DNA of 40,167 bases from a virus: positions 1 through 40,167 of IMG/VR virus record IMGVR_UViG_3300022744_000054; one strand, given 5' to 3'. The translations under genes and the position numbers were made by a program. This document shows, piece by piece, positions 6,172 to 36,289 of the stretch (within the stretch, counting starts at the first letter, position 1; every line of letters starts with the position of its first letter). A model generated the notes under the pieces. That model saw nothing but the letters and a program-made list of their open reading frames with translations, searched no databases and was not told where the DNA came from.

Positions 6172-7608
6172 ATGCCACGCCTTTCCGACCTGTTGTCCGC
6201 AATCGATGAAGCCAAACGCTACGGGATGCGCCGCCTGAGTGACATAGGCGCGAACCCGGACGCGAACGTGGCGCAGGCGTACGGTGCGTACGTCGGCGAC
6301 CCCATGCGCGAGCGCGCGCTGCGCGACGCCGAGTCGCGCAGCGTGATGCCGCAGTTGAGCGGACCAGCGCGCGACGCGATACAGCGCGAGATTGAGGGCG
6401 GCCTCGTCGGCATGGCAGCCGGCGGCAAGTCGCTGCCGGCCAGCGCCCGCAACGGCGTGCCCATGCGCAGCATCACGGTCAACAACCCGGTACGGGTGGA
6501 CTACCCCGGCATCTACAAGCGCCCCGACGTGATCGCGGCCGAGGCGGCGGCCCGGGTGGCCCCGGAGAACGAGGCTTTAAAGCGCCTGTTCGGTGTGAAC
6601 CGCAACGAGCTGTACGAGGCGACCGTGGCGCGCGGGCCGGGCAACATTGAGCCCGTGCTGCCGGGCGCGGCGGCGAACCCCACGGGCTCGGCTGCCGCCA
6701 CCAACGTGATGACCCGGCGCAACGAGAACCGGCTCATCGACGTGCTGAGCGAGGCCGAGAAGTACCCGCAGCTCACGCGCGGGATGGATGCTTGGTACAA
6801 CATGGACCCGGTGTACCAGCGCATGGTGCAGCTCGTGGGCCCGGAGGAGGCCAAGGCGCGCTTCACGCGGCTCAACACGCTGTCGGGCATGGCGAGCCCG
6901 GGCAGCGACGTGCTGACCGAGCTGAACCGTGGCACGGCCGCCAACATGCTCGCCGAGCAGGGCCGGTTCGGGGACTTCCTCACGCACGGCGGCATGAGCG
7001 TCAAGCTGCGTGGCCCGGACTACCCGGCTGACATGCGGGCGGTGCAGGGTCACGCGTACCACAAGACCGCGCAGGCGAAGCCCATGGGGGATTACCTCAC
7101 CACGGGCGCTATGCAGATGGAAAGCCCCAAGGTGCCTATGTACATTCAGGCTTCAGGCACGCCCGAGACGGGGTTCCAGACGCGCATGCCGGTGGGCGAC
7201 GCGCACTGGTCGCGCGGCGTGGGTCTCGCCGACGTGCGCACCAACGCGAACCCGGGCGCAAGCGTATCGACCCCGGAGATGTCGCAGCTCGGGCCGTGGT
7301 GGCGCGACCGCGTCGCGGCCCAAGTGGGGCTGGAGTCGGTGCCGGCGCAGGCCCGGGCGTGGGGCGCGTTCGCGCCGCAGACCGGGGTGGGCACGCCCAT
7401 CGCCGCGCCCAAGCTGGAGCTGCTCGCGCAGCAGATCATGAAAGCCTCGCAGCGCATGGGCGTCACCCCGGAGCAGGCCCGCGACATGATCCTGATGGGG
7501 CGGGCTCACGCCGGGGCGGCGACCCCCGGGACCATGGGTCTGGCTGCCGGGGCCGGCGCTGGCGGTGCTGTAGCTTTAAAGTACCTCAACGGCGAGCCGT
7601 CTCAGTAG
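6172..7608 (+). CDS. Late protein of unknown function, last gene of the rightward arm
   Basis: A 478-residue protein with GAGGAG eight bases before the ATG. The N-terminal part contains repeated Arg/Glu/Ala helical segments. The middle is mixed, with Tyr/Met/Trp-rich blocks (AWYNMDPVYQRM, MYIQASGTPETGFQTRMPVGDAHW). The C-terminus has a Gly/Ala-rich hydrophobic stretch (GLAAGAGAGGAVALKYL) that could be one membrane segment. It lies beyond the lysis genes and ends tail-to-tail with the leftward arm, overlapping the J-domain gene by seven bases. I recall similar proteins in other podoviruses but can name no function. A virion or ejection role is possible. Confidence 0.6.
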   Translation: MPRLSDLLSAIDEAKRYGMRRLSDIGANPDANVAQAYGAYVGDPMRERALRDAESRSVMPQLSGPARDAIQREIEGGLVGMAAGGKSLPASARNGVPMRSITVNNPVRVDYPGIYKRPDVIAAEAAARVAPENEALKRLFGVNRNELYEATVARGPGNIEPVLPGAAANPTGSAAATNVMTRRNENRLIDVLSEAEKYPQLTRGMDAWYNMDPVYQRMVQLVGPEEAKARFTRLNTLSGMASPGSDVLTELNRGTAANMLAEQGRFGDFLTHGGMSVKLRGPDYPADMRAVQGHAYHKTAQAKPMGDYLTTGAMQMESPKVPMYIQASGTPETGFQTRMPVGDAHWSRGVGLADVRTNANPGASVSTPEMSQLGPWWRDRVAAQVGLESVPAQARAWGAFAPQTGVGTPIAAPKLELLAQQIMKASQRMGVTPEQARDMILMGRAHAGAATPGTMGLAAGAGAGGAVALKYLNGEPSQ

Positions 7609-8246
7609 CGAGCCCCAAACCCGTACCGCTTCAGCTCCGCAAGCATCTCGGCCACACCCGGCGCAGCGTACTGCGGCCCCAGCCCCTGCACACGCTCGTC
7701 GGTCCTGTAGCGCGCCTTGACCAGCAGCCCCAGCACGCGCTCGCCGACGCGCGTGCTCTGCTCGGACTCGGCCAGCTCCTTCTGCTTGCCCTGTAGCCGG
7801 GCCCGCAGCAGATCGGCGATCAGGCCCTCCTCGTCCTCCAGCCGCTGGAGCGCCTGCTCGCACTTGGTGACCTCCTTCTGGATGCGCTGGCGCATCTGCC
7901 GCACCTGCTCCATGCCGCTCTTGACGCTGTCACTGGCGCGGATCAGGATGTTGTCGCACACGGCGTCGCTGCCGTCCATCACCTGCTGGAGCGTCTGGGA
8001 CAGCACGGCGAAGACCAGCGAGTCCTCGGCATTGCCCTTCGCCTGCGGGTCTTCGCCGTGCTGGTCGTAGTACGCCCGGCGCTCGGGGTCGCCCAGCACC
8101 TCCCACGCCTTGGCGACCCGCTGGAACGTCTCCTGATCGCCACCCCTGCGGTCGGGGTGGTGCTTCTGTGCCAGCTTGCGGTAGGCCCGCTTGATGGTCA
8201 CCGGGTCGGCGTCGCGCTCGACCCCGAGCGTCTCGTAGTGGTTCAT
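7602..8246 (-). CDS. J-domain (DnaJ-like) co-chaperone
   Basis: A 214-residue protein. Residues 1-65 are a clear J domain: HYETLGV, helix II KRAYRKLAQKHHPD with the invariant HPD at 30-32, then FQRVAKAWEVLGDPERRAYYD. The remaining 150 residues are a charged helical/coiled-coil region without the Gly/Phe segment or zinc fingers of full DnaJ. J proteins stimulate the ATPase of host Hsp70 (DnaK) and deliver clients. The ATG at 8246 has GAGGAG upstream and overlaps the stop of the phosphatase gene. It is the last gene of the leftward arm. A possible use is virion assembly or remodelling of replication complexes, which is inference. Confidence 0.9.
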   Translation of the reverse strand: MNHYETLGVERDADPVTIKRAYRKLAQKHHPDRRGGDQETFQRVAKAWEVLGDPERRAYYDQHGEDPQAKGNAEDSLVFAVLSQTLQQVMDGSDAVCDNILIRASDSVKSGMEQVRQMRQRIQKEVTKCEQALQRLEDEEGLIADLLRARLQGKQKELAESEQSTRVGERVLGLLVKARYRTDERVQGLGPQYAAPGVAEMLAELKRYGFGARY

Positions 8247-8728
8247 CAGAACGCTCCTCTGGCTACTTGGAAACAAGCGATGCCGGCAGCGCGCCACATG
8301 TCGACCACCTTGTCGCGGTCGTCAAACACGGCCGTCAGGCGGCCGTACTCCGGCGGCTCCAGTTCCGCCAGCCAATGCCGCTTGAGCACGTCGTCCGGGG
8401 TGTAGTCCCCGGCCTTGCGCATCTTCAGGGCCTCGGGCGGGGTGAACGGCTCCCAGTGCAGCAGCATGGTGCTGCGGATGATCCGGTGCTCGTACAGCCA
8501 CTCCTCGGTTTCAGCCCGGACCTCGTCGCTGCGGCCGCTCCAGACCCAGCACTCGGCCCCCGCCTTGCGCAGGGTCTGGAGCGTCTGGATAACCGGGATG
8601 TTGGGCTCGTCGTTGACGCAAGCGCGGTAGAACGCGGGCCAGTCTTTTTTCGGGCCCTCGACAAGGTGCCGGCGGTGGTCAATCAGCGCCAGCGTGCCGT
8701 CTAGGTCGAATATGTACAGTGGTCGCAT
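8246..8728 (-). CDS. HAD-family phosphatase, polynucleotide 3'-phosphatase-like
   Basis: A 160-residue protein starting MRPLYIFDLDGTL. HAD motif I is D8xD10, motif II SGR at 64-66, motif III likely Lys116, motif IV DDRDKVVDMWR at 136-146. The last motif and the following GIACFQVARG closely recall the C-terminal phosphatase domain of T4 polynucleotide kinase (PseT/Pnkp). No kinase P-loop is present, so this is a stand-alone phosphatase domain, probably acting on 3'-phosphate nucleic acid ends. The ATG at 8728 has a GGGAG site. An upstream in-frame extension overlaps the next gene and lacks homology. It is coupled to the J-domain gene by ATGA. Confidence 0.85.
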   Translation of the reverse strand: MRPLYIFDLDGTLALIDHRRHLVEGPKKDWPAFYRACVNDEPNIPVIQTLQTLRKAGAECWVWSGRSDEVRAETEEWLYEHRIIRSTMLLHWEPFTPPEALKMRKAGDYTPDDVLKRHWLAELEPPEYGRLTAVFDDRDKVVDMWRAAGIACFQVARGAF

Positions 8729-9389: not shown

Positions 9390-9619
9390 TTCCCACCTCC
9401 ACAGGTTGACGTGCCAAAGGCGACGCCCTCGGTCCACGCGCTGAACACCATCCGGTCCTCGCGGTCGCTCACGACGCTGTACGCGAACGCGAGGATCACG
9501 AGGGCCGCCACCAGCTCCCCGAGCGCCTTGACCCACCAAGGCGCGCGCGGTGCCGGCTTGATCACCACCGGGCGGCGGGCCGCCCTGCGGATCGCTGACA
9601 GGCCGACCGGGCCCTTCAT
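9386..9619 (-). CDS. Small single-pass membrane protein
   Basis: A 77-residue protein. The ATG at 9619 overlaps the upstream gene's stop and the stop overlaps the next ATG, so it sits in a coupled chain of three genes. The N-terminus is basic (AIRRAARRPVVIKPAPRAPWW). Residues about 29-50 (WVKALGELVAALVILAFAYSVV) form one membrane helix, followed by a short acidic/polar tail ending CGGGK. By the positive-inside rule the N-terminus would be cytoplasmic. The function is unknown. Confidence 0.6.
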   Translation of the reverse strand: MKGPVGLSAIRRAARRPVVIKPAPRAPWWVKALGELVAALVILAFAYSVVSDREDRMVFSAWTEGVAFGTSTCGGGK

Positions 9620-9930
9620 TTGTTCAGGTCCAGAAACGTGCGGCCCTTCTCGACCACGAACACGTCGGGCCGCAGCAGCGACGGCGGCACGCCGCAGTAC
9701 TCGGCGATCTGCTTGGCGCGCAGCGCCGGCAGCAGGAAGTGACGGTCGGTCGCGCAGCGCGCCTTCCACTTCGACAGGGTCTGTGGCGCGATGTCGAGCT
9801 TGGTGGCGAGCTTGGTGTTGTCGCCCGGCTCCTTGAGCTTGGTGGCGTACAGCCACAGCAGCGGGTGCTTGGTGGTACGGCTGCCGTCGGGCATGGTAGC
9901 CGCGAGCTTCACTTGCTTGGTGGTCTTCAT
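9616..9930 (-). CDS. YdaS-like helix-turn-helix DNA-binding protein
   Basis: A 104-residue protein. The segment TKLATKLDIAPQTLSKWKARCATDRHFLLPALRAKQIAEYCGVPPSLLRPDVF looks like a Cro/YdaS helix-turn-helix, including the characteristic LRPD close to its end. Proteins of this class are phage transcription regulators. The ATG has AAAGGAAA upstream and the gene follows the helicase by three bases. It is the best visible candidate for the protein that binds the 17 bp operator family in this arm, but that link is inference. Confidence 0.7.
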   Translation of the reverse strand: MKTTKQVKLAATMPDGSRTTKHPLLWLYATKLKEPGDNTKLATKLDIAPQTLSKWKARCATDRHFLLPALRAKQIAEYCGVPPSLLRPDVFVVEKGRTFLDLNK

Positions 9931-9933
9931 GGT

Positions 9934-11319
9934 TCAGTTTCCTTTGAGTGAGTTGAGGATGGCCGACTGGATGTCGGCCTTGTTTTGCAGCGCCTCGGCG
10001 ATGGACTCGTCCACCGTGCCGGCCGCCACAATGTGGTGGATCACGACCGGGTGGTCCTGACCCTGCCGGTAAACCCGGCGGTTGAATTGCAGGTAGTCCT
10101 CCAGCGCCCACGTCAGGCCAAACCAGCACACGGCGTGCCCGCCGGCTTGCAGGTTCAGGCCGTGCGCCACGCTGGCGGGGTGGGCCAGCAGCACCGGCAG
10201 CTCGCCCGCGTTCCACGCGCGGACGATCCGGTCGGCCTCCTTGTCGCTGACACCGCCGCCGAGGTACGGGATGCTGTCGTCGCCGAGCGCCTCGCGGATC
10301 GCCGGCACCTCGTGCAGGAACGCGACCGCGACCAGCAGCGGGGTGCCCTGCTGCTGCTCCACCAGATCGGCCAGCGCCTCCAGCTTGGCGTCGTGCATGG
10401 GCACGCTGCCGGCCTCGCTGTAGACCCAGCCGTTGGTGATCTGGCGCAGCTTCATGTTCACCGCTGCGGCATTGGGGGCGGTCAGCACGGTGCCGCTGGA
10501 CAGCTTGGCGTACAGCTCCCCGGCAAGGCCCTCGTACGCCGCCCGGGCGGCGCGCGGCAGCTCCACCGGGATGTTGTTGTAGGACAGGTCAGGCATCTGG
10601 AGGTAGTCCTCGGCCTTGAGGTGGATCGCAATGTCGCGCAGGCGGTGCTCGACCAGCGCGGGCGCGTTGGCCTTGGCGGTCCACTTGGTGATGGTGCGGC
10701 CGCCGCCAATGAAAATCTCGGTCGGGTCGCAGAACTGCTTGCGGAAATGCGTGATGAAACGCCCGAGGCGTTGGCCCTCGTCCACGATGAAGGTCTGCCC
10801 AAACAGGTCCTCGACCGCCTGCGGCGCTGGCGTGCCGGTCAGGATGTAGCGGCGCGCGAACTTGGGCAGCAGCGGCTTCAGCTCTTTAAAGCGCACGCTG
10901 GTGGCGTTCTTGAATTTGGTGGACTCGTCCACGGCCAGCATGTCAGGCACGACCTTGAACGACTCCAGCCGGCGGCCGGCGAGCCAGCGCACGTTCTCCG
11001 GGTTGATGATGTAGATGTCGGCTTCGACGCCCATGGCCTTGAGGCGCTCGGCCTCGGTGCCCAGCACCAGCGACACGCGCAGGTGGCTGAAATCGGCCCA
11101 CTTGGCGACCTCCTGACGCCACGTCAGGCGCGCCGGGCGGCGCGGCGCGATCACCAGCATGGCGCGAACGGCCTTGTGCTCCTTGAGCACGGTGAAACCG
11201 GCCAGCGTGATGGAGGTTTTGCCCATCCCGGGGTCGAGGAACAGGCACCCGCCCGGCTCGGCGCACATGAGCTGGATGGCGCGGAGCTGGTACGGGTGGG
11301 GGGCGTATTGCTTGGGCAT
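9934..11319 (-). CDS. SNF2/DEAD-box superfamily 2 helicase
   Basis: A 461-residue superfamily 2 ATPase. Walker A is DPGMGKTS (29-36), motif Ia VIAPRRPARLTW, motif II DEST at 131-134 in place of DEAH, motif III LTGTP at 160-164. The C-terminal lobe has GLNLQAGGHAVCWFGLTWALEDYLQFNRRVYRQGQ, a typical SNF2 motif V/VI region. It resembles the compact helicases that accompany VRR-NUC nucleases in many phages. A likely role is remodelling DNA during replication or recombination. The ATG at 11319 follows AAGGAG; the longer upstream frame runs through the promoter and operator and is rejected. It is the first gene of its own transcription unit. Confidence 0.88.
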   Translation of the reverse strand: MPKQYAPHPYQLRAIQLMCAEPGGCLFLDPGMGKTSITLAGFTVLKEHKAVRAMLVIAPRRPARLTWRQEVAKWADFSHLRVSLVLGTEAERLKAMGVEADIYIINPENVRWLAGRRLESFKVVPDMLAVDESTKFKNATSVRFKELKPLLPKFARRYILTGTPAPQAVEDLFGQTFIVDEGQRLGRFITHFRKQFCDPTEIFIGGGRTITKWTAKANAPALVEHRLRDIAIHLKAEDYLQMPDLSYNNIPVELPRAARAAYEGLAGELYAKLSSGTVLTAPNAAAVNMKLRQITNGWVYSEAGSVPMHDAKLEALADLVEQQQGTPLLVAVAFLHEVPAIREALGDDSIPYLGGGVSDKEADRIVRAWNAGELPVLLAHPASVAHGLNLQAGGHAVCWFGLTWALEDYLQFNRRVYRQGQDHPVVIHHIVAAGTVDESIAEALQNKADIQSAILNSLKGN

Positions 11320-11348
11320 TTCGGTGCTCCTTGTTGGTGGTGAGGTGC

Positions 11349-11365
11349 TGAAGCCGTAGTCTACA
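11349..11365. promoter_or_regulatory. Operator-like site O4 (17 bp imperfect palindrome)
   Basis: TGAAGCCGTAGTCTACA, one of five related sites with consensus TGTAGAYNNNGGCTWCA (here on the minus strand). It overlaps the promoter-like -10 of the helicase unit. Compare 13571, 15544, 16585 and 16765. Confidence 0.75.
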
Positions 11366-11386
11366 TCACAGAATTTGAAAACGCAA
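11358..11386 (-). promoter_or_regulatory. Weak sigma70-like promoter for the helicase unit
   Basis: On the minus strand, TTGCGT (11386-11381), a 17-base spacer and TAGACT (11363-11358). Match to consensus is poor, but position and overlap with the operator-like site match the other leftward units. It lies about 40 bases before the helicase ATG. Confidence 0.45.
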
Positions 11387-11647
11387 ACACCACTCAAAGG
11401 CGTCCCGGTCGCGGACCACGTCCACCGTGAAGCCCATCTCGCGCAATTGCGCGTGGACCACCTCCTGCCGCTTGCTGACGCGCCCGTCCGGGGCCTTGAA
11501 CTCGACAAACCAGACCTTGCCGCCCGGGATCAGGAACAGCCGGTCGGGCAGCCCCGTGATGAGCGGCCAGAGCTTCAGGGCCCACATGCCGAGCGACTTG
11601 GCGCGCCGGCAGCAGGCGGCCTCCAGCCGGGCCTCGGGGCCGCTCAC
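11366..11647 (-). CDS. VRR-NUC domain nuclease
   Basis: A 93-residue stand-alone VRR-NUC (PD-(D/E)XK) domain. It reads EARLEAACCRRAKSLGMWALKL near the N-terminus, then GLPDRLFLIPGGKVWFVEFKAPDGRVSKRQ, giving Asp35, Glu49-x-Lys51 and Gln61 as the catalytic set. I chose the GTG at 11647 because it makes a GTGA overlap with the upstream stop and gives the normal family length; longer frames upstream are the shadow of the next gene. These phage nucleases often sit next to a SNF2 helicase and probably process branched DNA. The stop lies beside the operator of the helicase unit. Confidence 0.85.
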   Translation of the reverse strand: MSGPEARLEAACCRRAKSLGMWALKLWPLITGLPDRLFLIPGGKVWFVEFKAPDGRVSKRQEVVHAQLREMGFTVDVVRDRDAFEWCLRFQIL

Positions 11648-11940
11648 TTGCGCAGCCCCGAGACAAAGAACAGCGGGCCGTCCCGACCCGTCACCATGTC
11701 CTGCATAAGCTCGGCCACGGTGTCGAGGTCGCAAAGGGCGTTGTACGCGAGCAGGATCAGGTACGCATTGGTGTCGAACCCCAACCGCCGCGCGTCGGCC
11801 GCAACGCGGCGCGCCGTGGACAAGGCCGGCGTTTCCACGTGCTCGGGGCCCGGCGGGCGGCCCTGCATGTCGTGTCCGTCGGCGAGCTTGCCGAGTATGT
11901 CCGCAACTTCTGCCATCGTGGTCTGTTTCTCGTTTGCCAT
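11644..11940 (-). CDS. Small helical early protein of unknown function
   Basis: A 98-residue acidic helical protein with a strong AAGGAGGTG before the ATG at 11940. It has no Cys/His cluster or membrane segment. The start overlaps the previous gene's stop by ATGA, and its own stop overlaps the GTG of the nuclease gene. I recognise no family. Placement suggests an accessory of the nuclease-helicase pair or a host-takeover protein. Confidence 0.65.
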   Translation of the reverse strand: MANEKQTTMAEVADILGKLADGHDMQGRPPGPEHVETPALSTARRVAADARRLGFDTNAYLILLAYNALCDLDTVAELMQDMVTGRDGPLFFVSGLRK

Positions 11941-12188
11941 CACGCACCTCCTTCCACCTGCGGCGTGCCGGCCGGCGGCTCCAGATGCACGGCCCGGTAC
12001 TCGACCGGGTGCCAGCGGTGCTGCGGCTTGTCCTCGGACGGCACGACCCGGTGGTCCAGCACGGCCGTCCACCGCTGCGCGAGGTCGCGCGCGTACGTCT
12101 TGGCGTCCTCCTCGGTGGAGAACCGCAGCAGGTTGCCGACCCACTTGCCGCTGCTGTCGGCGATCACTTCGACTTTAAAGCTACTCAT
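11940..12188 (-). CDS. Small early protein of unknown function
   Basis: An 82-residue protein starting MSSFKVEVIADSSGKWVGN. Two ATGs occur in tandem at 12191 and 12188. I chose 12188 because GAGGAG lies seven bases ahead of it. The fold looks alpha/beta, with a strand, a helix (STEEDAKTYARDLAQRW) and a Pro-rich end. Octamer CTTTAAAG at 12173-12180 encodes Ser-Phe-Lys at the N-terminus. It overlaps both neighbours by a few bases. No homologue was recognised. Confidence 0.65.
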   Translation of the reverse strand: MSSFKVEVIADSSGKWVGNLLRFSTEEDAKTYARDLAQRWTAVLDHRVVPSEDKPQHRWHPVEYRAVHLEPPAGTPQVEGGA

Positions 12189-12330
12189 CATCACACTCCT
12201 CGGTTTCAGGTTCCCAGCCGGCCGGCGCGGCGTGGTTCATGCCGCAACCACGGCATCGCAGCCACCAGCGGGAGCCCAGCTGCCCGAGCAGCGCCTGCTC
12301 GGGGTACTCGCAGCACGGGCAGTCGATCAT
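12181..12330 (-). CDS. 49-residue zinc-ribbon-like protein (Lar-like)
   Basis: A short gene between two coupled genes. It reads MIDCPCCEYPEQALLG, then WWLRCRGCGMNHA and an acidic end. Two Cys pairs (CPCC and CRGC) with a central Trp-rich strand resemble the small zinc ribbons annotated as restriction-alleviation (Lar-type) proteins, usually 50-70 residues. The ATG at 12330 follows AAGGAG and overlaps the stop of the next gene by ATGA. The stop overlaps the downstream gene by eight bases. Frame and ribosome site make it a convincing real gene; the anti-restriction idea is only a family guess. Confidence 0.7.
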   Translation of the reverse strand: MIDCPCCEYPEQALLGQLGSRWWLRCRGCGMNHAAPAGWEPETEECDDE

Positions 12331-12551
12331 GTCGAGGCTCCTTCAACGTCGTGCCAGCCTTCCACCCAAACAGAAGTCGCTACGGTGCAAGAGTCAACAG
12401 CCGCGATTAGCTCTTCCCGTACCTGTCGCAAGTCGCCGCCAATGCGCGTGAGCTTTGGCGTGCCTTTGAACGGGACGCACACCGTAAAAGACCCCTGCGG
12501 CGTCTTCACGCGAACGACGGTGCCGAGATGCTTTCCGTGTGCGACGGTCAT
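12327..12551 (-). CDS. Small early protein of unknown function
   Basis: A 74-residue protein starting MTVAHGKHLGTVVRVKTPQGSFTVCVPFKGTPKL. It is beta-rich at the N-terminus with a C-terminal helix (DLRQVREELIAAVDSC). The ATG at 12551 is preceded by GGGGAG. It is coupled by ATGA overlap to the small zinc-ribbon gene. No family was recognised. Confidence 0.65.
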   Translation of the reverse strand: MTVAHGKHLGTVVRVKTPQGSFTVCVPFKGTPKLTRIGGDLRQVREELIAAVDSCTVATSVWVEGWHDVEGAST

Positions 12552-12883
12552 GGTTCGCTCCCCATGGTCAGGTCGATGCGGCACGCAGCCAGCGCGTGCC
12601 AGCGGCGGCTACGCTCACGCTCGCGCCGGGCCAGCTCCTCGCGCATCAGTTGCAGCTCGTGGCTGTACCCGTCCTCCAGCCAGTCGTCCATCGCGATGTT
12701 GAACTCCTGCTCGGCGTACATCTGCGCCATGTCGCCGTGGAGCCCGGCGGGCCACATGGGCATGGGCTCGGGGTCGTAAAAGTTCTCCCGGGTGCGCTCG
12801 ACCATGGCGATGGCCGCGCGCAGGTGTTCGATGGTCATGTCGGCAAGGTCGATGCGGCGGCCGTCACGCGTAGTCCACTTCAT
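12548..12883 (-). CDS. Conserved phage-type hypothetical protein
   Basis: A 111-residue protein starting MKWTTRDGRRIDLADMTIEHLRAAIAMVER. This opening, W-T-R-D-G then a Met-x2-HL helix, is one I have seen in small phage hypothetical proteins. The C-terminal half is strongly charged and helical (LMREELARRERERSRRW). The ATG has GGAGGTG upstream. Both ends overlap neighbours by four bases. The function is unknown. Confidence 0.7.
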   Translation of the reverse strand: MKWTTRDGRRIDLADMTIEHLRAAIAMVERTRENFYDPEPMPMWPAGLHGDMAQMYAEQEFNIAMDDWLEDGYSHELQLMREELARRERERSRRWHALAACRIDLTMGSEP

Positions 12884-13068
12884 GTCTTCACCTCCGGTTC
12901 GATACCCAGCTTGCGGGCCCGCTCGACAAACGCGGCCGCCTCCTTCTTGGTGGCGAACGTGTGCGTGCCTTGGTATTGCGACCCGACCGGAAAGCAGACG
13001 TACCAGCCGCGCCCCCGGGGCTTCTGATAGCCCCGGATGACGCCCGGCAGGATCACCGGGCGGCCCAT
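12880..13068 (-). CDS. Small basic early protein
   Basis: A 62-residue basic protein starting MGRPVILPGVIRGYQKPRGRGWYVCFPVG, with a C-terminal helix (KKEAAAFVERARKLG). The strand-strand-helix pattern with basic loops resembles AP2/Arm-type DNA-binding modules of integrases, but the length is minimal and I cannot confirm it. It overlaps the upstream stop by one base (TAATG) and the downstream start by four. Confidence 0.6.
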   Translation of the reverse strand: MGRPVILPGVIRGYQKPRGRGWYVCFPVGSQYQGTHTFATKKEAAAFVERARKLGIEPEVKT

Positions 13069-13361
13069 TACGCCACCACCTTGCGGGCCGTGACCTTGAG
13101 GACCAGCGTGGTGCTCTCGCTGGTGTGCGCCGTCACCAACTGGCGCGACGGCTCCAGCTTCTTGGCGATGGACTCCCAGTCGATGCTGGTGCGGGTCTGT
13201 TCGAACACGTTGGCGTCGAAGAACATGCCGCTGGTGCGGGCGACGCCGCCGCCGGCCTTGAGCGACGCTTCGATGGCCTTGGCCTTGGTCTGAAGCTCGG
13301 CGATCTGGGCCTTGAGGTTGCCCAGTTGATCGACCTCGGAGATTGCGAGTGCTTGTGTCAT
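13068..13361 (-). CDS. Small coiled-coil early protein
   Basis: A 97-residue protein starting MTQALAISEVDQLGNLKAQIAELQTKAKAIEASLKAGGG. The first 40 residues form a coiled coil. The second half is beta-rich (LVTAHTSESTTLVLKVTARKVVA). The ATG at 13361 has AGGAG upstream. I could not place it in a family; the opening resembles small phage proteins that bind host nucleases or replication factors, but that is weak. Confidence 0.65.
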   Translation of the reverse strand: MTQALAISEVDQLGNLKAQIAELQTKAKAIEASLKAGGGVARTSGMFFDANVFEQTRTSIDWESIAKKLEPSRQLVTAHTSESTTLVLKVTARKVVA

Positions 13362-13384
13362 GGTGTGGCTCCTGTGGTGAGGGT

Positions 13385-13543
13385 TTACTGCTTCTTGGCG
13401 TATTTCAACGCCGCTTCCAACTGCTTGAGCGCGGTGCCGAGTCTCGGGGTCGGGTCTTGAAACCACGCCCTTTTGCACTGCGCGTGCTGCGCCTCCAGCA
13501 GTGCCAGCCTTGCGGCCGCGTGGGGGTTCTGGGGTGTTTGCAT
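13385..13543 (-). CDS. 52-residue early protein
   Basis: A short gene that reads MQTPQNPHAAARLALLEAQHAQCKRAWFQDP and ends AALKYAKKQ. It is helical and basic. An AGGAG ribosome site precedes the ATG at 13543. It is the first gene after the operator-like site O3 and promoter at 13569-13598, which supports it as the head of a transcription unit. The function is unknown. Confidence 0.6.
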   Translation of the reverse strand: MQTPQNPHAAARLALLEAQHAQCKRAWFQDPTPRLGTALKQLEAALKYAKKQ

Positions 13544-13568
13544 TTTCGTTCTCCTGTGGTGAGCCGTT

Positions 13569-13598
13569 AGTGTAACCGCAGTCTACAAACAAAGTCAA
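13569..13598 (-). promoter_or_regulatory. Sigma70-like promoter for the 13543 unit
   Basis: On the minus strand, TTGACT (13598-13593), an 18-base spacer and TACACT (13574-13569), 26 bases before the ATG at 13543. The -35 lies within the last codons of the upstream metalloprotease gene. Operator-like O3 covers the spacer and -10. Confidence 0.65.
13571..13587. promoter_or_regulatory. Operator-like site O3 (17 bp imperfect palindrome)
   Basis: TGTAACCGCAGTCTACA. Reverse complement reads TGTAGACTGCGGTTACA, matching the family consensus TGTAGAYNNNGGCTWCA. It lies inside the promoter spacer and -10 of the unit that starts at 13543. Confidence 0.8.
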
Positions 13599-14302
13599 AC
13601 GGTCTGCACAACTTTTTTATCGGCCCGGTCGCCGGGGAACATCTCCTCGCCGCACGACGGGCACACCGGGAACCCGTAGTCCTCCAATTTCTTGGCGGTC
13701 GCGTAGACCTTGTTGCCGCACCCGCACTCGCAGCCGTGCAGGCCGTTGGACTCCTTCTTGACCTTCTCGGCCAGCACCAGCGAGCGGTGCGGGTACGGGC
13801 CCAGCTCGACGGCCAGCTTCTGGATGAACAGCAGCGTGTCGCCGGCCGCGCGGCTGGTCTTGCCGCCCGTGTAGCTGACGGCCACGCTGTTGCGGGTGAA
13901 CTCCTTGCCGTGGCCCGACTTGCAGTCGTCGGCGACGTGGAGCAGCTCGTGCCCCAGCACGTCGATCACCTGCACCGGGCTCTCCAGCGTCGGGTTGAGG
14001 AACACCTCGTTGACGCCGGCCAGCGACCGGCTGCGGGGCCAGCACTCGCCGATCCGCTTCTTGGGGCTGCCGCCGCCGGGGAACCCGCACGTGACCTTGT
14101 AGTCGTCGGGCACCTTGACGCCGCTGGCGGCGAAGCGCGCAGCGAGGGCCTTGGCGGCCCGCTGGAGCCACTGCTCGCGCACGTCCGGGGGTGTGGGTAC
14201 AAACACCGCCGGCTTGCGCACCTTTACGGTTTTAGGGAGCGCGGTGGCCGCCTTGCGGGCGGCGGCGTTGATCTGTTCGATGGTGCGGGTGTCTTTGGTC
14301 AT
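13595..14302 (-). CDS. SprT-like zinc metalloprotease with C-terminal zinc ribbon
   Basis: A 235-residue protein. The zinc-binding HExxH is HELLH at 118-122, followed by HVADDCKSGHGKEF, whose His131 could be the third ligand as in SprT/Spartan-type proteins. The C-terminus has a zinc ribbon: CECGC (191-195) and CPSC (214-217). SprT-type proteases in cells remove DNA-protein crosslinks; phage copies are common but poorly studied. The ATG follows AAGGAG. It is the last gene of the unit transcribed from the 15571 promoter. Confidence 0.82.
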   Translation of the reverse strand: MTKDTRTIEQINAAARKAATALPKTVKVRKPAVFVPTPPDVREQWLQRAAKALAARFAASGVKVPDDYKVTCGFPGGGSPKKRIGECWPRSRSLAGVNEVFLNPTLESPVQVIDVLGHELLHVADDCKSGHGKEFTRNSVAVSYTGGKTSRAAGDTLLFIQKLAVELGPYPHRSLVLAEKVKKESNGLHGCECGCGNKVYATAKKLEDYGFPVCPSCGEEMFPGDRADKKVVQTV

Positions 14303-14324
14303 GTCGGTTCTCCTTGTGCGGTGT

Positions 14325-14537
14325 TTAGGTGCGGAGCCAGCGGCGTTGCTGGATCGCGCCGCGAACGCCCCAACCGGCGCGGGCCGTGATGCTGAGCCGC
14401 TGCTGGACGTGGCGCACGTACCACGTCTCGGGCGCGTGCAGGTAGAGGTACGTCCGGGGGCGCGGCCGCTGTTTGGGTTTGTGCTTGGCCCACAGGCGGT
14501 ACTCGTAGTTTTTCTTGGGTGCGCGCTGGTGGTTCAT
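14325..14537 (-). CDS. Small very basic protein
   Basis: A 70-residue protein starting MNHQRAPKKNYEYRLWAKHKPKQRPRPRTYLYL. It is rich in Arg and Lys, with many Tyr and Trp and few acidic residues. The ATG at 14537 follows GAGGAG. The composition suggests nucleic-acid binding, but no family was recognised. Confidence 0.65.
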   Translation of the reverse strand: MNHQRAPKKNYEYRLWAKHKPKQRPRPRTYLYLHAPETWYVRHVQQRLSITARAGWGVRGAIQQRRWLRT

Positions 14538-14548
14538 GTCGTCTCTCC

Positions 14549-15208
14549 TCAGTTGAACTTGGTCGCGCAGATCGGGCCGATACCGGCTTCGATGGACTGC
14601 GGGTCGGTCAGGTCGCGGCCGCACGAGCAGCAGCGGCCGCTGAGCTTGCCGTACTTGACGGCGGCCACGAGCGGGTTGGCCTCCAGCTCCAGCAGCAGGG
14701 CGCGGAGGGCCTCCACGGACGCGCCACGCGTCTCGCAGTTGCGGACGTATATCTCGGCCACGCCGTCGGCGATGCGGCCCACCACGCCCTCGTGGCCCTC
14801 GGCGGTGATCCAACACAGGCTGTCCTGATTGCGGCGGCGAATCTTGAAGGCATCGACGTGGAACGTCGCGTGCTGCTGCATCACCGCAAACAGCGACGGC
14901 ACCGGGAACTTGTTGGGGTTGACCGCCGGGGCTGGTGCCGGGATCGCGTGATGGTCCGCGCCAGCCCACGCCACCAGCTTCTCGGCGTAGCCGCGCTGGT
15001 TCTCGCTGGCAAAGCTGCCGAACCGCTCCAGCTTGGCGGCGATGTCGCGGCAGGTGTCGGCCTTGCCCATGGCGAAGCTGCCGGTGCGGTGGTCCCACAC
15101 GCTGGCTGCGGCGCGCAGCTTGGCGACCATGGGGTGGACCGCCGGGGCGGCGGCTACGGGGGCGGGGGCCTTGACGGCCACGGCGGCTTTCCAGTTTGCG
15201 ACTTGCAT
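14549..15208 (-). CDS. DUF6011-type zinc-binding protein
   Basis: A 219-residue protein. An Ala/Pro-rich N-terminus is followed by a helical region (PMVAKLRAAAS, RDIAAKLERFGSFASENQRGYAEKLVAWA). The last 27 residues, CCSCGRDLTDPQSIEAGIGPICATKFN, match the DUF6011 pattern of a Cys knuckle plus GIGP-x-C. The domain is common in phage early proteins. Its exact role is unknown, though the Cys residues should bind one zinc. The start has AAGGAG nine bases upstream. Confidence 0.8.
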   Translation of the reverse strand: MQVANWKAAVAVKAPAPVAAAPAVHPMVAKLRAAASVWDHRTGSFAMGKADTCRDIAAKLERFGSFASENQRGYAEKLVAWAGADHHAIPAPAPAVNPNKFPVPSLFAVMQQHATFHVDAFKIRRRNQDSLCWITAEGHEGVVGRIADGVAEIYVRNCETRGASVEALRALLLELEANPLVAAVKYGKLSGRCCSCGRDLTDPQSIEAGIGPICATKFN

Positions 15209-15232
15209 GGTGTGCTCCTTGTGGTGGTGTGG

Positions 15233-15502
15233 TTAGACGTTGCAACCGAGGCGGCGAAGCTGGCGCTTGACGCCCGCGATGTACGCCTTGCCCTCGTACA
15301 GGTGAAGCCCTTGCCCCGGGCCCGCGTCGCCGAACATGGCGCACTCGCTGCGGTACTGGCACTCGCTCTCGCCGAGGCCCTCTTCGTACGCGTCCAGCGC
15401 GGACATCATGTCGTACGGGCCGCTGCCCTCGGGGTTGGACGGGGCGGTCCAGTATTCGATGAACTCGGCGGCAGTCATGGCTTCAGTGTTGGCGATGGAC
15501 AT
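15233..15502 (-). CDS. Small acidic early protein
   Basis: An 89-residue acidic protein with three Cys residues. The ribosome site AAAGGAG directly overlaps an octamer CTTTAAAG (15513-15520), so any protein bound to the octamer could also affect this start. It is the first gene downstream of the promoter and operator at 15542-15571. No family was recognised. Confidence 0.65.
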   Translation of the reverse strand: MSIANTEAMTAAEFIEYWTAPSNPEGSGPYDMMSALDAYEEGLGESECQYRSECAMFGDAGPGQGLHLYEGKAYIAGVKRQLRRLGCNV

Positions 15503-15541
15503 TTCGTTGCTCCTTTAAAGTGGTGAGGTGTTGCTGGCGCT

Positions 15542-15571
15542 ATTGTAGATCAAGGCTTCAAAACTTTGCAA
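15542..15571 (-). promoter_or_regulatory. Sigma70-like promoter for the 15502 unit
   Basis: On the minus strand, TTGCAA (15571-15566), an 18-base spacer and TACAAT (15547-15542), one mismatch from the ideal -10. The ATG at 15502 is 39 bases downstream. Operator-like site O2 overlaps the -10. Confidence 0.7.
15544..15560. promoter_or_regulatory. Operator-like site O2 (17 bp imperfect palindrome)
   Basis: TGTAGATCAAGGCTTCA, matching the family consensus TGTAGAYNNNGGCTWCA directly on the plus strand. It sits in an 80-base gap and overlaps the -10 of the leftward promoter. Confidence 0.8.
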
Positions 15572-15582
15572 CAACTGTTTTC

Positions 15583-15810
15583 CTAGTGCCGTTCGATGAC
15601 AAAGCGGGTGGCGTGGTGCCAGCCCTTGATGGTGACCAGCTTGGGCGGCCCAAGGACCAGCTTGCCGTTGTTGGGCCCGGTGCCGCAGACCCACACGGGG
15701 TCTTCCACCACGATGCGGCTGGGGTTCTCGGCGATGGTCGCCTTGTAGCCGTAGTACTTCAGGTACTTGACGATCTGGTCTGCCTCTTGGGCGAATATGT
15801 TGGCAGCCAT
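15583..15810 (-). CDS. Small early protein of unknown function
   Basis: A 75-residue protein starting MAANIFAQEADQIVKYLKYYGYKATIAENPSRIVVEDPVW. The helix-strand-strand pattern suggests a small alpha/beta fold. The ATG at 15810 was preferred to a GTG one codon upstream. It follows the next gene by four bases and ends just before the promoter for the following unit. No family was recognised. Confidence 0.6.
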   Translation of the reverse strand: MAANIFAQEADQIVKYLKYYGYKATIAENPSRIVVEDPVWVCGTGPNNGKLVLGPPKLVTIKGWHHATRFVIERH

Positions 15811-15814
15811 CACG

Positions 15815-16129
15815 TCACCCGATCATGTTCACGTCGCCGACCTCGTACCCGGCGGCCTTGACGTACGCCGCAGCCTGCGTGCGGGTGTTGGCGTCGATCC
15901 GCAGCTCCACGCGGCGGCCCTCGGCCAGCCCGTACACGCCGACCTCGTACAGGTGCTTGGCGTTCTTGCGCCGATACAGCTCGGTCAGGGCGTCGTTGAC
16001 TTGGTCAAGGTACTTGGCCTCGGCCTTGTCGTCCACGCCCTTCATGGCGCGGGCGGCCAGCCCCGCGTCTTCGAGGATGTAGCGGAGCTGGTCGTCGGTC
16101 TTGATGCGGTACTGTGCGAGCTGGTTCAT
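15815..16129 (-). CDS. Small early protein of unknown function
   Basis: A 104-residue protein. The first 55 residues are helical (DQLRYILEDAGLAARAMKG, KYLDQVNDALTELYRRK). The C-terminal part (VGVYGLAEGRRVELRIDANTRTQAAAYVKAAGYEVGDVN) looks like strand-strand-helix. GGAGG lies ahead of the ATG at 16129. No family was recognised. Confidence 0.65.
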   Translation of the reverse strand: MNQLAQYRIKTDDQLRYILEDAGLAARAMKGVDDKAEAKYLDQVNDALTELYRRKNAKHLYEVGVYGLAEGRRVELRIDANTRTQAAAYVKAAGYEVGDVNMIG

Positions 16130-16130
16130 G

Positions 16131-16547
16131 TCAAACCTCCGTGCGGTTGAAACCTTCGACCATGATCACGCGCGGCGTGGCGGCGTTTGCCTCCTCCAGC
16201 GACCGCTCCATGATCCTCTGATAGTGCGGGCCGCCCGTGCCACGGGCGATCAGGTCGGCGTAGTGCTGGCGCGCCCGGGCGAGACTCTTCGCGCCAAGCT
16301 CCCGGGCGAACGGTGCCGGGTCGGGCATCTCGGACACGAGACGCACGCGGGTGTTGGTCCAGTAGACCGGGTGCCCGTCCACGTCCTGCGGGTACAGGCG
16401 GTGCTGGACCGGCTGACCGTTCTCGTGGCCGACGGCGGTGCCCTGCTTCTTGCCCCAGCTCGTGAGGATGATCTTGCGGACGTAGACCTTGCCGCTGTCC
16501 TCGCGCAGGAAGTGCCAGACCGCGTCGCCCTTCTTGAATGTTGCCAT
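16131..16547 (-). CDS. First gene of leftward arm, possible SH3/KOW-like basic protein
   Basis: A 138-residue protein starting MATFKKGDAVWHFLREDSGKVYVRKIILTSWGKKQGTAVG. The opening KKGDAVWHF is typical of small beta-barrel (SH3/KOW-like) domains. The C-terminal half is helical (ELGAKSLARARQHYADLIARG, QRIMERSLEEANAA). AAGGAG precedes the ATG. As the first gene after the main leftward promoter it is likely made very early. The function is unknown. Confidence 0.65.
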   Translation of the reverse strand: MATFKKGDAVWHFLREDSGKVYVRKIILTSWGKKQGTAVGHENGQPVQHRLYPQDVDGHPVYWTNTRVRLVSEMPDPAPFARELGAKSLARARQHYADLIARGTGGPHYQRIMERSLEEANAATPRVIMVEGFNRTEV

Positions 16548-16582
16548 GGTGCTGCTCCTTGTGGTGGTGAGTACGAGTCCGT

Positions 16583-16613
16583 ATTGTAGCCGACATCTAC
16601 AACCATGTGTCAA
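16583..16613 (-). promoter_or_regulatory. Main leftward early promoter
   Basis: On the minus strand, a perfect TTGACA (16613-16608), a 19-base spacer and TACAAT (16588-16583), 36 bases before the ATG at 16547. The spacer is longer than ideal. The operator-like site O1 covers most of the spacer and the -10. Confidence 0.6.
16585..16601. promoter_or_regulatory. Operator-like site O1 (best palindrome of the family)
   Basis: TGTAGCCGACATCTACA. With one more base on each side the arms are TTGTAG and CTACAA, exact inverted repeats separated by seven bases. Reverse complement TGTAGATGTCGGCTACA fits the family consensus. Confidence 0.82.
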
Positions 16614-16764
16614 CACTTTAAAGCAAATATTTTCGGTCCGGCACCAACACTATAGTATGCACAAACAGCCGCAGGCTACAAGCAGCAACCGTGCCAACAT
16701 CAAATTCATCGTATTCCAATGGCATAAACGCGAGCCTCTAGAACGGCCCAAAATCGATTAACGG

Positions 16765-16781
16765 GGTAGACTGAGGCTACC
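16765..16781. promoter_or_regulatory. Operator-like site O5
   Basis: GGTAGACTGAGGCTACC, the fifth member of the 17 bp family. It shares TAGACTGNGG and the GTAG-N7-CTAC geometry but has G and C at its ends. The exact inverted repeat extends to seven bases per arm (16763-16769 and 16777-16783). No obvious promoter overlaps it. Confidence 0.6.
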
Positions 16782-16970
16782 CCCTTGCCAAACACGAAAA
16801 CGCAGCCACGGGCCTTCTAGGGGCCTTAGAATCGAATGACATTGGCATAAATCGCCTATTTTTTGTGCAAATGCTCATTTTTTAGGCAGCGCGTTTTCTG
16901 GCACACTCTGTGCATGTAGCTTTTAGGCACAACAATTGCAGTGTGCTGCGCCGCACAGACGGCCCCGGAT

Positions 16971-17000
16971 TTGACAACACCCCGGACCCGGGTTTAGTCT
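16971..17000 (+). promoter_or_regulatory. Rightward early promoter (candidate)
   Basis: TTGACA (16971-16976), an 18-base spacer and TAGTCT (16995-17000). The -35 is perfect and the -10 weak, similar in type to other boxes in this phage. It lies 45 bases before the DUF2800 nuclease ATG, with a 16 bp quasi-palindrome just upstream. Confidence 0.5.
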
Positions 17001-17045
17001 GCGCGTCCGCACTTCAACTTCACTTCATTCAAGGAGAGCCTCACC

Positions 17046-18155
17046 ATGAGCCACGCAGTATTCAGCCCCTCCGCGTCCAAGCGTTGGATGGCATGCCCCG
17101 GCAGCTTCGCCGCCAACATCGACGCACCCAACACCAGCAGCAAGTACGCCGACGACGGCACGCTGGCGCACGACCTCGCGGCCTCACTGATAGAAGGCAC
17201 GATGAAGCTCCCGGCAGTCCAGCGGGCGGCCCCGTCGCCCGAGCACGCCGAGGCCATCGCGGTCTACGCCGACTTCGCCCGGGGCATCAAGAAGAGCGCC
17301 GACTGGTTCGAAGTCGAGTCCAAGGTCCGCTGGAACGACGAGCTGTTCGGCACCGCCGACCTGCTGGCCGTAACCGGCGACACGATGGATGTCGGCGACC
17401 TGAAGACCGGCGCGGGCGTGTACGTGGACCACGTCGAGAACAGCCAGATGCTCACGTACGCGTTCCTCGCGCTGTCCACCATCCCGCGCAACGTCACCCA
17501 GAACGTCAAAAAGGTCAACCTGCACGTGATCCAGCCGCTGTTCCCGGGCGCACAGCCGATCCGCACGTGGTCCTGCCCCATCGCCGTGGTGCTGGAGTGG
17601 GGGCAGGCGGTCCAGCGCGCCATGGAGGCCGCCAAGCAGCCCAACGCGCCACGGGTGCCGGGCGAGGAGCAGTGCCGCTGGTGCGCCGTCAAGGTCAACT
17701 GCCCGGCGTCGCAGGGCATCGTCAGCAGCCTCATGCAACCGGCGCTGGTGGACACCAACCCGGAGCAGCTCGGGGAGTGGCTCCGCAAGGTGGCGCTGGC
17801 CGAGTCGTTCATCAAGACGCTGCGCGAGACGGCCCACAAGCTGGTGGAGCAGGGCGTCAACATCCCGGGCTGGAAGCTGGAGCCCAAGCGCGCCACCCGC
17901 AAGTGGGCCGACGAGAAGAAGCTCATCGCCGCTGCCGTCAAGGAGGGCATCGACGTACGGGTCCAGACGGTGATGTCCCCGGCCGCGCTGGAGAAGCACC
18001 TCAAGGACAAGCTGCCGCCGAAAATCGAGGCACTTGTCACGGCCGAATCCAGCGGCTACAATCTTGTGGTAGACAAAAGCTACGTGCCTAGTCTGCCAAA
18101 GGCCGCAGCGCCCGACCTCAAGTCGGCGCTGCGGAATCTCAAGCACCGGGTCTAG
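17046..18155 (+). CDS. DUF2800 PD-(D/E)XK exonuclease with Cas4-like cysteines
   Basis: A 369-residue protein starting MSHAVFSPSASKRWMACPGS, the usual opening of DUF2800/RecB-like phage nucleases. The catalytic set is visible: His42 (LAHDLA), Asp105 (FGTADLL), Asp118-x-Lys120 (GDLKTG) and Gln134 (SQMLTYA). Four Cys residues (C17, C210, C213, C219) match the iron-sulphur arrangement of Cas4/AddB-type nucleases. The likely role is resection of DNA ends for recombination-dependent replication. AAGGAG precedes the ATG. It leads the rightward early operon and is followed by a terminator-like hairpin. Confidence 0.85.
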   Translation: MSHAVFSPSASKRWMACPGSFAANIDAPNTSSKYADDGTLAHDLAASLIEGTMKLPAVQRAAPSPEHAEAIAVYADFARGIKKSADWFEVESKVRWNDELFGTADLLAVTGDTMDVGDLKTGAGVYVDHVENSQMLTYAFLALSTIPRNVTQNVKKVNLHVIQPLFPGAQPIRTWSCPIAVVLEWGQAVQRAMEAAKQPNAPRVPGEEQCRWCAVKVNCPASQGIVSSLMQPALVDTNPEQLGEWLRKVALAESFIKTLRETAHKLVEQGVNIPGWKLEPKRATRKWADEKKLIAAAVKEGIDVRVQTVMSPAALEKHLKDKLPPKIEALVTAESSGYNLVVDKSYVPSLPKAAAPDLKSALRNLKHRV

Positions 18156-35187: not shown

Positions 35188-35204
35188 GCACTGACCGTCA
35201 ACCG

Positions 35205-35230
35205 TACCCCGGGGCTACAGCCCCGGGGTA
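35205..35230 (+). terminator. Perfect hairpin after the coat gene
   Basis: TACCCCGGGGC (35205-35215), loop TACA, GCCCCGGGGTA (35220-35230), eleven perfect pairs, then TTTC. The weak T-run suggests partial termination or protection of the coat mRNA 3' end. A GGCTACA heptamer spans the end of the left arm and the whole loop. Confidence 0.7.
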
Positions 35231-35247
35231 TTTCAAGGAGAAGTGAA

Positions 35248-35631: not shown

Positions 35632-35849
35632 TGAGCTACCCCCGCACGCTGTACAAGCTCCCCGAGGGCGCGACCGCGTCCGTCTCGACCATGGTTCAGA
35701 ACTTGGACGAGCACGACGCGGCCCTGCTGGACGGCTGGCACGACGATCCGGCCTGTGGCGCGCTTCCGGCCCCGGATGAGGCTGCCCTCTCAACCGAGCC
35801 CGGAGCGCCTGCTGGCGGCGATTCTGGCGCGTCTGGGGAGGGTTCCTGA
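35631..35849 (+). CDS. Short relative of the preceding protein
   Basis: A 72-residue protein starting MSYPRTLYKLPEGATASVSTMVQNLDEHDAALLDGWHDDPA, which lines up with the core of the upstream gene. The rest is a Pro/Gly/Ala/Ser-rich tail. TGATG coupling links it to both neighbours. The function is unknown. Confidence 0.6.
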   Translation: MSYPRTLYKLPEGATASVSTMVQNLDEHDAALLDGWHDDPACGALPAPDEAALSTEPGAPAGGDSGASGEGS

Positions 35850-36289
35850 TGAGCGTCGCACCTATCCGCCGCAGCGACGAGTTCCTGTTCGACCCCAGTT
35901 CCGTGGCCGAGCCCGACGCCGCCCCGGCGTTCCCGTTCCGGGCCGTTCAGGACATCGTCATCATCGAACAGCTCGTCAAGGACAAGAGCGCGGGCGGGAT
36001 CGCGCTCTTGGACGACGGCCGCAAGTACCCCTGCGGCCGTGTCGTGGCGCACGGCCCGGGCCGCACGTACGCGTTCTACATGGACGCGAACGGCAACACG
36101 CAGGCCGGGCACACCGTCCCCATGCAAATCAAGGTCGGGGACTGGGTCGTGTTCGGGCGCTACAACTCCGGCGGCGAGCCCATCGAAGTCGATGGCAAGA
36201 AGTACCTCATGTGCAGGGAAGGCGATATCGGTCTGGTCGCGCTGAGCGGCGAGCCCGAGGTCAAGCTCTGCCCCAACCCCGCTGGCTAA
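35849..36289 (+). CDS. GroES-like (Cpn10) co-chaperonin
   Basis: A 146-residue protein. Residues 31-132 match the Cpn10 barrel: RAVQDIVIIEQLVKDKSAGGIALLDDGRKYPCGRVVAHGPGR, then IKVGDWVVFGRY and KYLMCREGDIGLVAL. KDKSAGGIALLDDG is the mobile-loop region that would contact host GroEL. There is an extra 30-residue N-terminal stretch and an insert around residues 73-92. T4 Gp31 sets the precedent for a phage co-chaperonin that folds coat protein; here the gene lies close to the coat gene. It starts by TGATG overlap. Confidence 0.85.
   Translation: MSVAPIRRSDEFLFDPSSVAEPDAAPAFPFRAVQDIVIIEQLVKDKSAGGIALLDDGRKYPCGRVVAHGPGRTYAFYMDANGNTQAGHTVPMQIKVGDWVVFGRYNSGGEPIEVDGKKYLMCREGDIGLVALSGEPEVKLCPNPAG

Follow-up and report, generated by a model that had tools for sequence, protein, structure and literature searches.

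A putative regulon of a Cro-type repressor in apparently lytic, uncultured podoviruses

A family of 17-bp palindromic sites in IMG/VR record IMGVR_UViG_3300022744_000054, analysed in full (40,167 bases, here called the window), looks like the operator set of a Cro-type repressor encoded at 9616..9930 (-). The virus is a soil-type bacterial virus and belongs to a podovirus lineage that is uncultured and apparently lytic. Among described systems, the YdaS protein of CP-933P resembles Cro in that its binding sites overlie PRM and PR (PMC8630535). Like the window protein, lambda/P22-type Cro, the Xylella prophage Cro (PDB 3bd1) and CP-933P YdaS (PMC8630535; PDB 8co2) are small single-domain helix-turn-helix (HTH) proteins, and their folds are the nearest to its predicted model. 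Palindromic sites of 17-18 bp overlapping promoters, putative operators in the window, would be a further likeness, as would self-repression, which is predicted for the window protein. The window differs in that neither a cI or cII partner nor a lysogeny region was seen, operators are found at many early-gene promoters rather than in one control region, the gene is at the end of a helicase unit, and the protein falls below the YdaS and P22_Cro Pfam cut-offs.

The P1 C1 repressor has 22 dispersed operators with a 17-bp asymmetric consensus (PMC8546580). As in P1, a single repressor would bind many operators genome-wide at several transcription units, whereas the sites described here are palindromic (half-site TGTAGCC in both arms), the protein is small and Cro-like, and no lysogeny functions were found. 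L5-type repressors of mycobacteriophages bind more than twenty asymmetric 13-mers, and these stoperators are likewise many, mostly intergenic copies of one repressor site, whose orientation follows the direction of transcription and which a monomer with two domains recognises (PMC9283540). In contrast, the present sites are 17-bp palindromes in either orientation and are embedded in promoters, with four promoter-backed copies in the window and several noncoding copies in each relative.

A repeated, regulatory-looking intergenic element whose role is unassigned is also present in the lytic T1-like phages TLS and Stevie (PMC11447400, PMC4319613). That element consists of asymmetric direct repeats of 21-22 bases about 76 bases from start codons with no named protein, whereas here a palindrome over promoters is accompanied by a covarying candidate protein. 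In actinophage phiC31 the repressor operators are conserved inverted repeats at early promoters, a likeness to the present sites, although phiC31 is a temperate phage that carries an integrase and whose repressor is larger. Multi-operator phage repressors are already known (P1 C1, L5), and what appears new is the combination of palindromic Cro-type operators with dispersal to many promoters, in phages where no lysogeny circuit is seen. No earlier report of a regulon in this lineage was found in the literature searched.

Operator sites in the window and its relatives

Pattern matching in the window placed exact copies of TGTAGAYNNNGGCTWCA at 11349 (-), 15544 (+) and 16585 (-), a copy with one mismatch at 13571 (-) and one with two mismatches at 16765 (+), with the sites at 15544 and 16765 inverted relative to the other three. 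Allowing up to three mismatches gave 51 matches against 4.2 expected, a number reached by no shuffle; part of this excess is probably codon-driven matches inside genes. Helicase relatives were taken from IMG/VR (43 fetched, about 25 near 60% identity), and 12 of the related genomes, the window being excluded, supplied the training set for a matrix, which comprised 104 upstream noncoding sites, some of them from near-identical contigs. The matrix consensus was TGTAGCC-NNN-GGCTACA, and the top scores in the window were the first three sites (11349, 13571 and 15544).

Separate gene calling confirmed that the leftward arm has only four gaps wider than 30 bp (11320-11365, 13544-13594, 15503-15582 and 16548-17045) and that each contains one site, at 11349, 13571, 15544 and 16585 respectively. 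The best scores in these gaps were 18.8, 18.9, 19.4 and 13.8 bits while other gaps of at least 25 bases scored -10.9 to 6.6, except for a terminator-like hairpin at 35188-35247 (15.3). When four windows of equal size were placed at random 20,000 times, the observed scores were never matched, in agreement with the first-pass annotation, which had judged the arrangement unlikely to occur by chance.

Each of the four sites overlaps a -10-like hexamer (TAGACT, TACACT, TACAAT and TACAAT), also as proposed there. Operator 1 (11349..11365, -; TGTAGACTACGGCTTCA; 18.8 bits) lies over the promoter TTGCGT-17-TAGACT (11358-11386), which was read from the sequence, and heads the unit containing the helicase and the HTH gene. 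Operator 2 (13571..13587, -; TGTAGACTGCGGTTACA; 18.9 bits) is within the promoter TTGACT-18-TACACT (13569-13598) and heads the unit from 13543 to 11366. Operator 3 (15544..15560, -; TGAAGCCTTGATCTACA in the gene direction, exact consensus on the + strand; 19.4 bits) is within TTGCAA-18-TACAAT (15542-15571) and heads the unit from 15502 to 13595, and operator 4 (16585..16601, -; TGTAGATGTCGGCTACA; 13.4 bits) is within TTGACA-19-TACAAT (16583-16613), the best promoter context among the window sites despite the weak matrix score, and heads the unit from 16547 to 15583.

The earlier annotation had counted five members, and the fifth (16765..16781; GGTAGACTGAGGCTACC; 13.8 bits), located in the divergent intergenic region, is doubtful as its score is akin to those of in-gene matches. 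It has the form GGTAG...CTACC with the 13-nt arms of an inverted repeat, and in relatives GGTAGCCTGGGGCTTCA-type sites precede the first early gene. An additional candidate weak operator (16664..16680, -; TGTAGCCTGCGGCTGTT; 12.6 bits, noncoding) is located upstream of a leftward TACTAT -10-like hexamer. The members are imperfect palindromes as described, but a palindrome with half-site TGTAGMC fits them better than the asymmetric consensus first given.

Several matches were rejected as operators. The sequence at 35203-35219 (15.3 bits) is an arm of the strong hairpin ACCCCGGGGCTACAGCCCCGGGGT at 35188-35247, which follows the major head protein gene, is probably a terminator and mimics the operator matrix. 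Positions 18044 and 18068 were ruled out by scores of 1.6 and 4.5 bits; a good sigma-70-like promoter, TTGTCA-17-TACAAT (18034-18062, +), within the 3' end of the exonuclease gene and ahead of 18207, contains half an operator only.

In ten genomes, 60 noncoding sites reached at least 14 bits, where 150 column-permuted palindromes gave 0.65 on average, and at 18 bits or more there were 31 sites in 23 kb of noncoding and 2 in 365 kb of coding sequence. One in-gene match in the window, at 7139 (17.8 bits), nearly equals the real sites. Deep-coding matches numbered 33 at 14 bits against 2.4 for permuted palindromes and one at 18 bits, a count reached by 20 of the 150 permutations. These in-gene matches are not claimed as functional stoperators, because GAAGCC/GGCTTC-type codon pairs are their likely cause and no excess over permuted palindromes remained at 18 bits.

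The same sites were found in more than a dozen related viruses, where the relatives' matrix located them at early promoters, which argues for a single regulator acting on several units as the first-pass annotation had suggested. It is almost certain that they form a genuine conserved cis-regulatory family, as judged from these comparisons. The switch had been assigned to the leftward arm, but it would not be confined to that arm because the regulon of the relatives also includes sites ahead of the polA unit, the DUF2815 unit and, among late genes, the one for the major head protein. An operator-like TGTAAACGCAGGCTTAA lies directly upstream of the latter gene in one relative (8562-8578 of L051, genome G001), and equivalents or close variants precede it in G002, G003, G007, G010 and G014, with none in the window. 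Regulon size varies, since one relative with the HTH gene (G021) shows just two noncoding two-mismatch sites.

The candidate repressor and its recognition helix

The candidate repressor is a Cro/YdaS-like HTH protein of 104 amino acids (9616..9930, -), which the first-pass annotation had named as the best visible candidate, and four lines of comparison favour that choice. A homologue is located directly after the helicase on the same strand in every motif-bearing relative whose contig extends that far, and relatives with the HTH gene have the equivalent site or sites of operator 1 upstream of the helicase. Four helicase relatives without the HTH gene (whole records, 39-43 kb) had no matching site. 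Genomes with a match to HTH_3 had this protein as their sole match, and no further Pfam DNA-binding domain was detected among the small open reading frames scanned.

The fourth line is a joint change in protein and site. The recognition helix reads PQSLYKWER in most other relatives, PQTLSKWKA in the window and AQTLYGWER in two genomes (L042/G011 and L109/G019), whose operators have changed to TGTAGGC-NNN-GCCTACA. All 16 choices of half-site positions 6-7 were compared with two mismatches permitted, and the 12 other relatives peaked at TGWAGCC (46 noncoding) and the window at TGWAGCC/AC/CT. The two genomes peaked at TGWAGGN, with 19 noncoding counts over four choices (some sites counted repeatedly) and none for TGWAGCC, so that the half-site shifts from TGTAGCC to TGTAGGN exactly where the recognition helix is changed. 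Several of the altered sites lie 25-50 bases before early genes, the helicase included. A further diverged Cro-like protein is encoded directly behind the helicase in L111 (G020; 6893-7186), in a genome with neither operator type, and its operator should be a third specificity.

The AlphaFold model (predicted local distance difference test score 80) had as its top PDB neighbours 3bd1, the Xylella prophage Cro (root-mean-square deviation 1.8, TM 0.65 on the target), and 8co2, YdaS. At E <= 0.01, 9 of 21 members of the family alignment matched YdaS_toxin and 13 of 21 matched HTH_3. Because the sites recur in relatives and change together with the protein, 9616-9930 is very probably the protein acting on them and hence the switch.

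Early shut-off and alternative explanations

With the 100 distinct sites of the combined set turned toward the downstream gene, a sigma-70-like promoter was present at 33, against a shuffle mean of 8.5 (maximum 14), and in 30 of these 33 the operator fell within the -35 to -10 region, the commonest spacer being 18 (20/33). For 19 sites TTGAC immediately preceded the operator, compared with 2 for a control stretch, and 42 sites had a -10-like hexamer at the 3' end, compared with 1. In many relatives' sites the operator thus occupies the spacer from TTGAC to the -10; ahead of the helicase, a second operator often follows over the -10. On the evidence of sequence this arrangement is repressor geometry.

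The sites are therefore read, on the basis of the sites themselves, promoter geometry, conservation, synteny, presence or absence of the gene and protein-site covariation, as probable operators of one phage-encoded repressor, 9616-9930, that would shut down early units in the manner of Cro. A dimer would bind the 17-bp palindromes (half-site TGTAGMC, 3-bp centre), and by occupying host-type sigma-70 promoters, either over the -10 itself or in the stretch separating it from the -35, would keep RNA polymerase off. Since its gene sits in the unit headed by operator 1, which overlies the promoter of that unit, the protein would also repress itself. The four early units of the leftward arm would be on in the infected cell until the protein accumulates and would then be shut jointly, as by Cro. 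If 9616-9930 is the protein, repression rather than activation is highly probable, and early shut-off rather than a role in immunity is fairly likely. The degrees of certainty given for the site family, the protein, repression and early shut-off are judgements and were not computed.

A repressor that confers immunity in a temperate or plasmid-like phage, in the style of P1 C1 or L5, could use the same operators to silence the genome in a carried state, and the breadth of the regulon, including the sites at the major head protein gene of relatives, resembles immunity regulons. This is unlikely given the life style indicated. A search for tyrosine integrase (PF00589) found none in 14 genomes, and its control gave hits in every one of the 14 reference genomes. 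The larger window proteins scanned included no member of an integrase or partition family, and 9616-9930 has an HTH domain only. No relatives of the protein, prophage-borne ones included, were confirmed in 84,980 bacterial genomes; the absence of tyrosine integrases and of bacterial-genome relatives points to a lytic lineage, with a plasmid-like carried state the less likely alternative. The integrase search revealed no temperate-phage lysogeny module, with serine recombinases and plasmid functions covered less than exhaustively.

The promoters are of the host sigma-70 type and phages can carry sites for host regulators, so that a host transcription factor exploited for timing, with the linked HTH protein doing something else, could account for the sites themselves. 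Among helicase relatives the sites nevertheless track the presence of the phage HTH gene and their sequence switches with the recognition helix, a pattern that might also arise if the two genomes concerned had moved to another host. A host factor is not expected to follow a phage gene, and this reading is improbable.

An activator, MerR-like or Cro-like, that switches the units on together from long-spacer promoters is equally improbable. The 19-base spacer with an internal palindrome at 16585 and at seven relatives' sites is as in MerR-type promoters and two family members gave weak MerR hits, but the commonest spacer is 18, near-consensus promoters can work without an activator, Cro and YdaS have the nearest folds, and sites in the late region or over ribosome-binding sites are unlike MerR geometry. 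Action of the palindromes in RNA, as small hairpins near leader starts for translational control or attenuation, is very improbable, since even though perfect copies could form a 7-bp stem with a 3-nt loop and some relatives' sites lie 8-12 bases from the start codon over GGAG, promoter-associated sites are upstream of the expected start point and the arms do not covary (positions 3/15 match below chance, 27 vs 38.5), the ground on which this reading was rejected.

Several observations weigh against repression by 9616-9930. The Foldseek E-values for 3bd1 and 8co2 (0.16-0.20) and the profile match to 3bd1 (E 0.074, its alignment reaching the C-terminal RPDVF) are non-significant, so that the Cro/YdaS fold is likely rather than proven, and the protein is under the Pfam cut-offs for YdaS_toxin (16.1/30 bits), P22_Cro (16.4/30.2) and HTH_3 (18.5/23). 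The covariation rests on two genomes that are related to each other and is therefore probably one evolutionary event observed twice. The site at 16765 scores no better than several in-gene matches and is thus a member by position and symmetry only, while operator 4 scores weakly on the relatives' matrix, no higher than certain matches inside genes. In the relatives, roughly two thirds of the sites lack a promoter that fits the simple consensus, and a number of them overlie ribosome-binding sites.

Genome context and implications

The genome is probably complete because a direct end repeat of 126 bases is present (14-139 = 40042-40167, offset 13 bases from the left end), which can be read as a circular or terminally redundant genome. 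The G+C content is 66%. Podovirus-type head proteins (portal, scaffold, major head protein and terminase) are encoded together with a DNA polymerase, a primase-helicase, a SNF2-type helicase and an exonuclease. Among cultured phages there were no close DNA relatives of the window and one weak match to the HTH protein, in a Klebsiella phage.

The first gene of the unit carrying the candidate repressor gene encodes the SNF2-type DNA helicase (9934..11319, -; phrog_62, E 7e-131). The second leftward unit (11366..13543, -) comprises a VRR-NUC-like nuclease (11366-11647) and small open reading frames and is headed by operator 2. The third (13595..15502, -; operator 3) comprises a phrog_6361 protein (13595-14302) and then 14325-14537, 14549-15208 and 15233-15502, and the fourth (15583..16547, -; operator 4) has three small open reading frames. 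Other features include a protein with a DnaJ domain (7602-8246), a PNKP-like HAD phosphatase domain (8246-8728; PF25109, E 1e-28) within the last leftward genes, and a phage-encoded GroES-like co-chaperonin (35849-36289; phrog_3188) amid the head genes.

There is about an even chance of a broader pattern, in which an uncultured lineage of obligately lytic podoviruses uses a Cro-type protein alone, without a lysogeny circuit, as a genome-wide repressor of early promoters (and, in relatives, of the head protein gene), with a natural specificity switch in which the recognition helix and one symmetric operator base change together regulon-wide. Regulation is poorly known in phages that lack a lysogeny module and rely on host RNA polymerase. 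The repeated element described here comes with a specific candidate protein, a promoter geometry and natural variation in both partners, which makes the role of a Cro-type repressor in an apparently lytic phage directly testable, and the pairs of operator and recognition helix constitute a natural data set on Cro-type DNA recognition.

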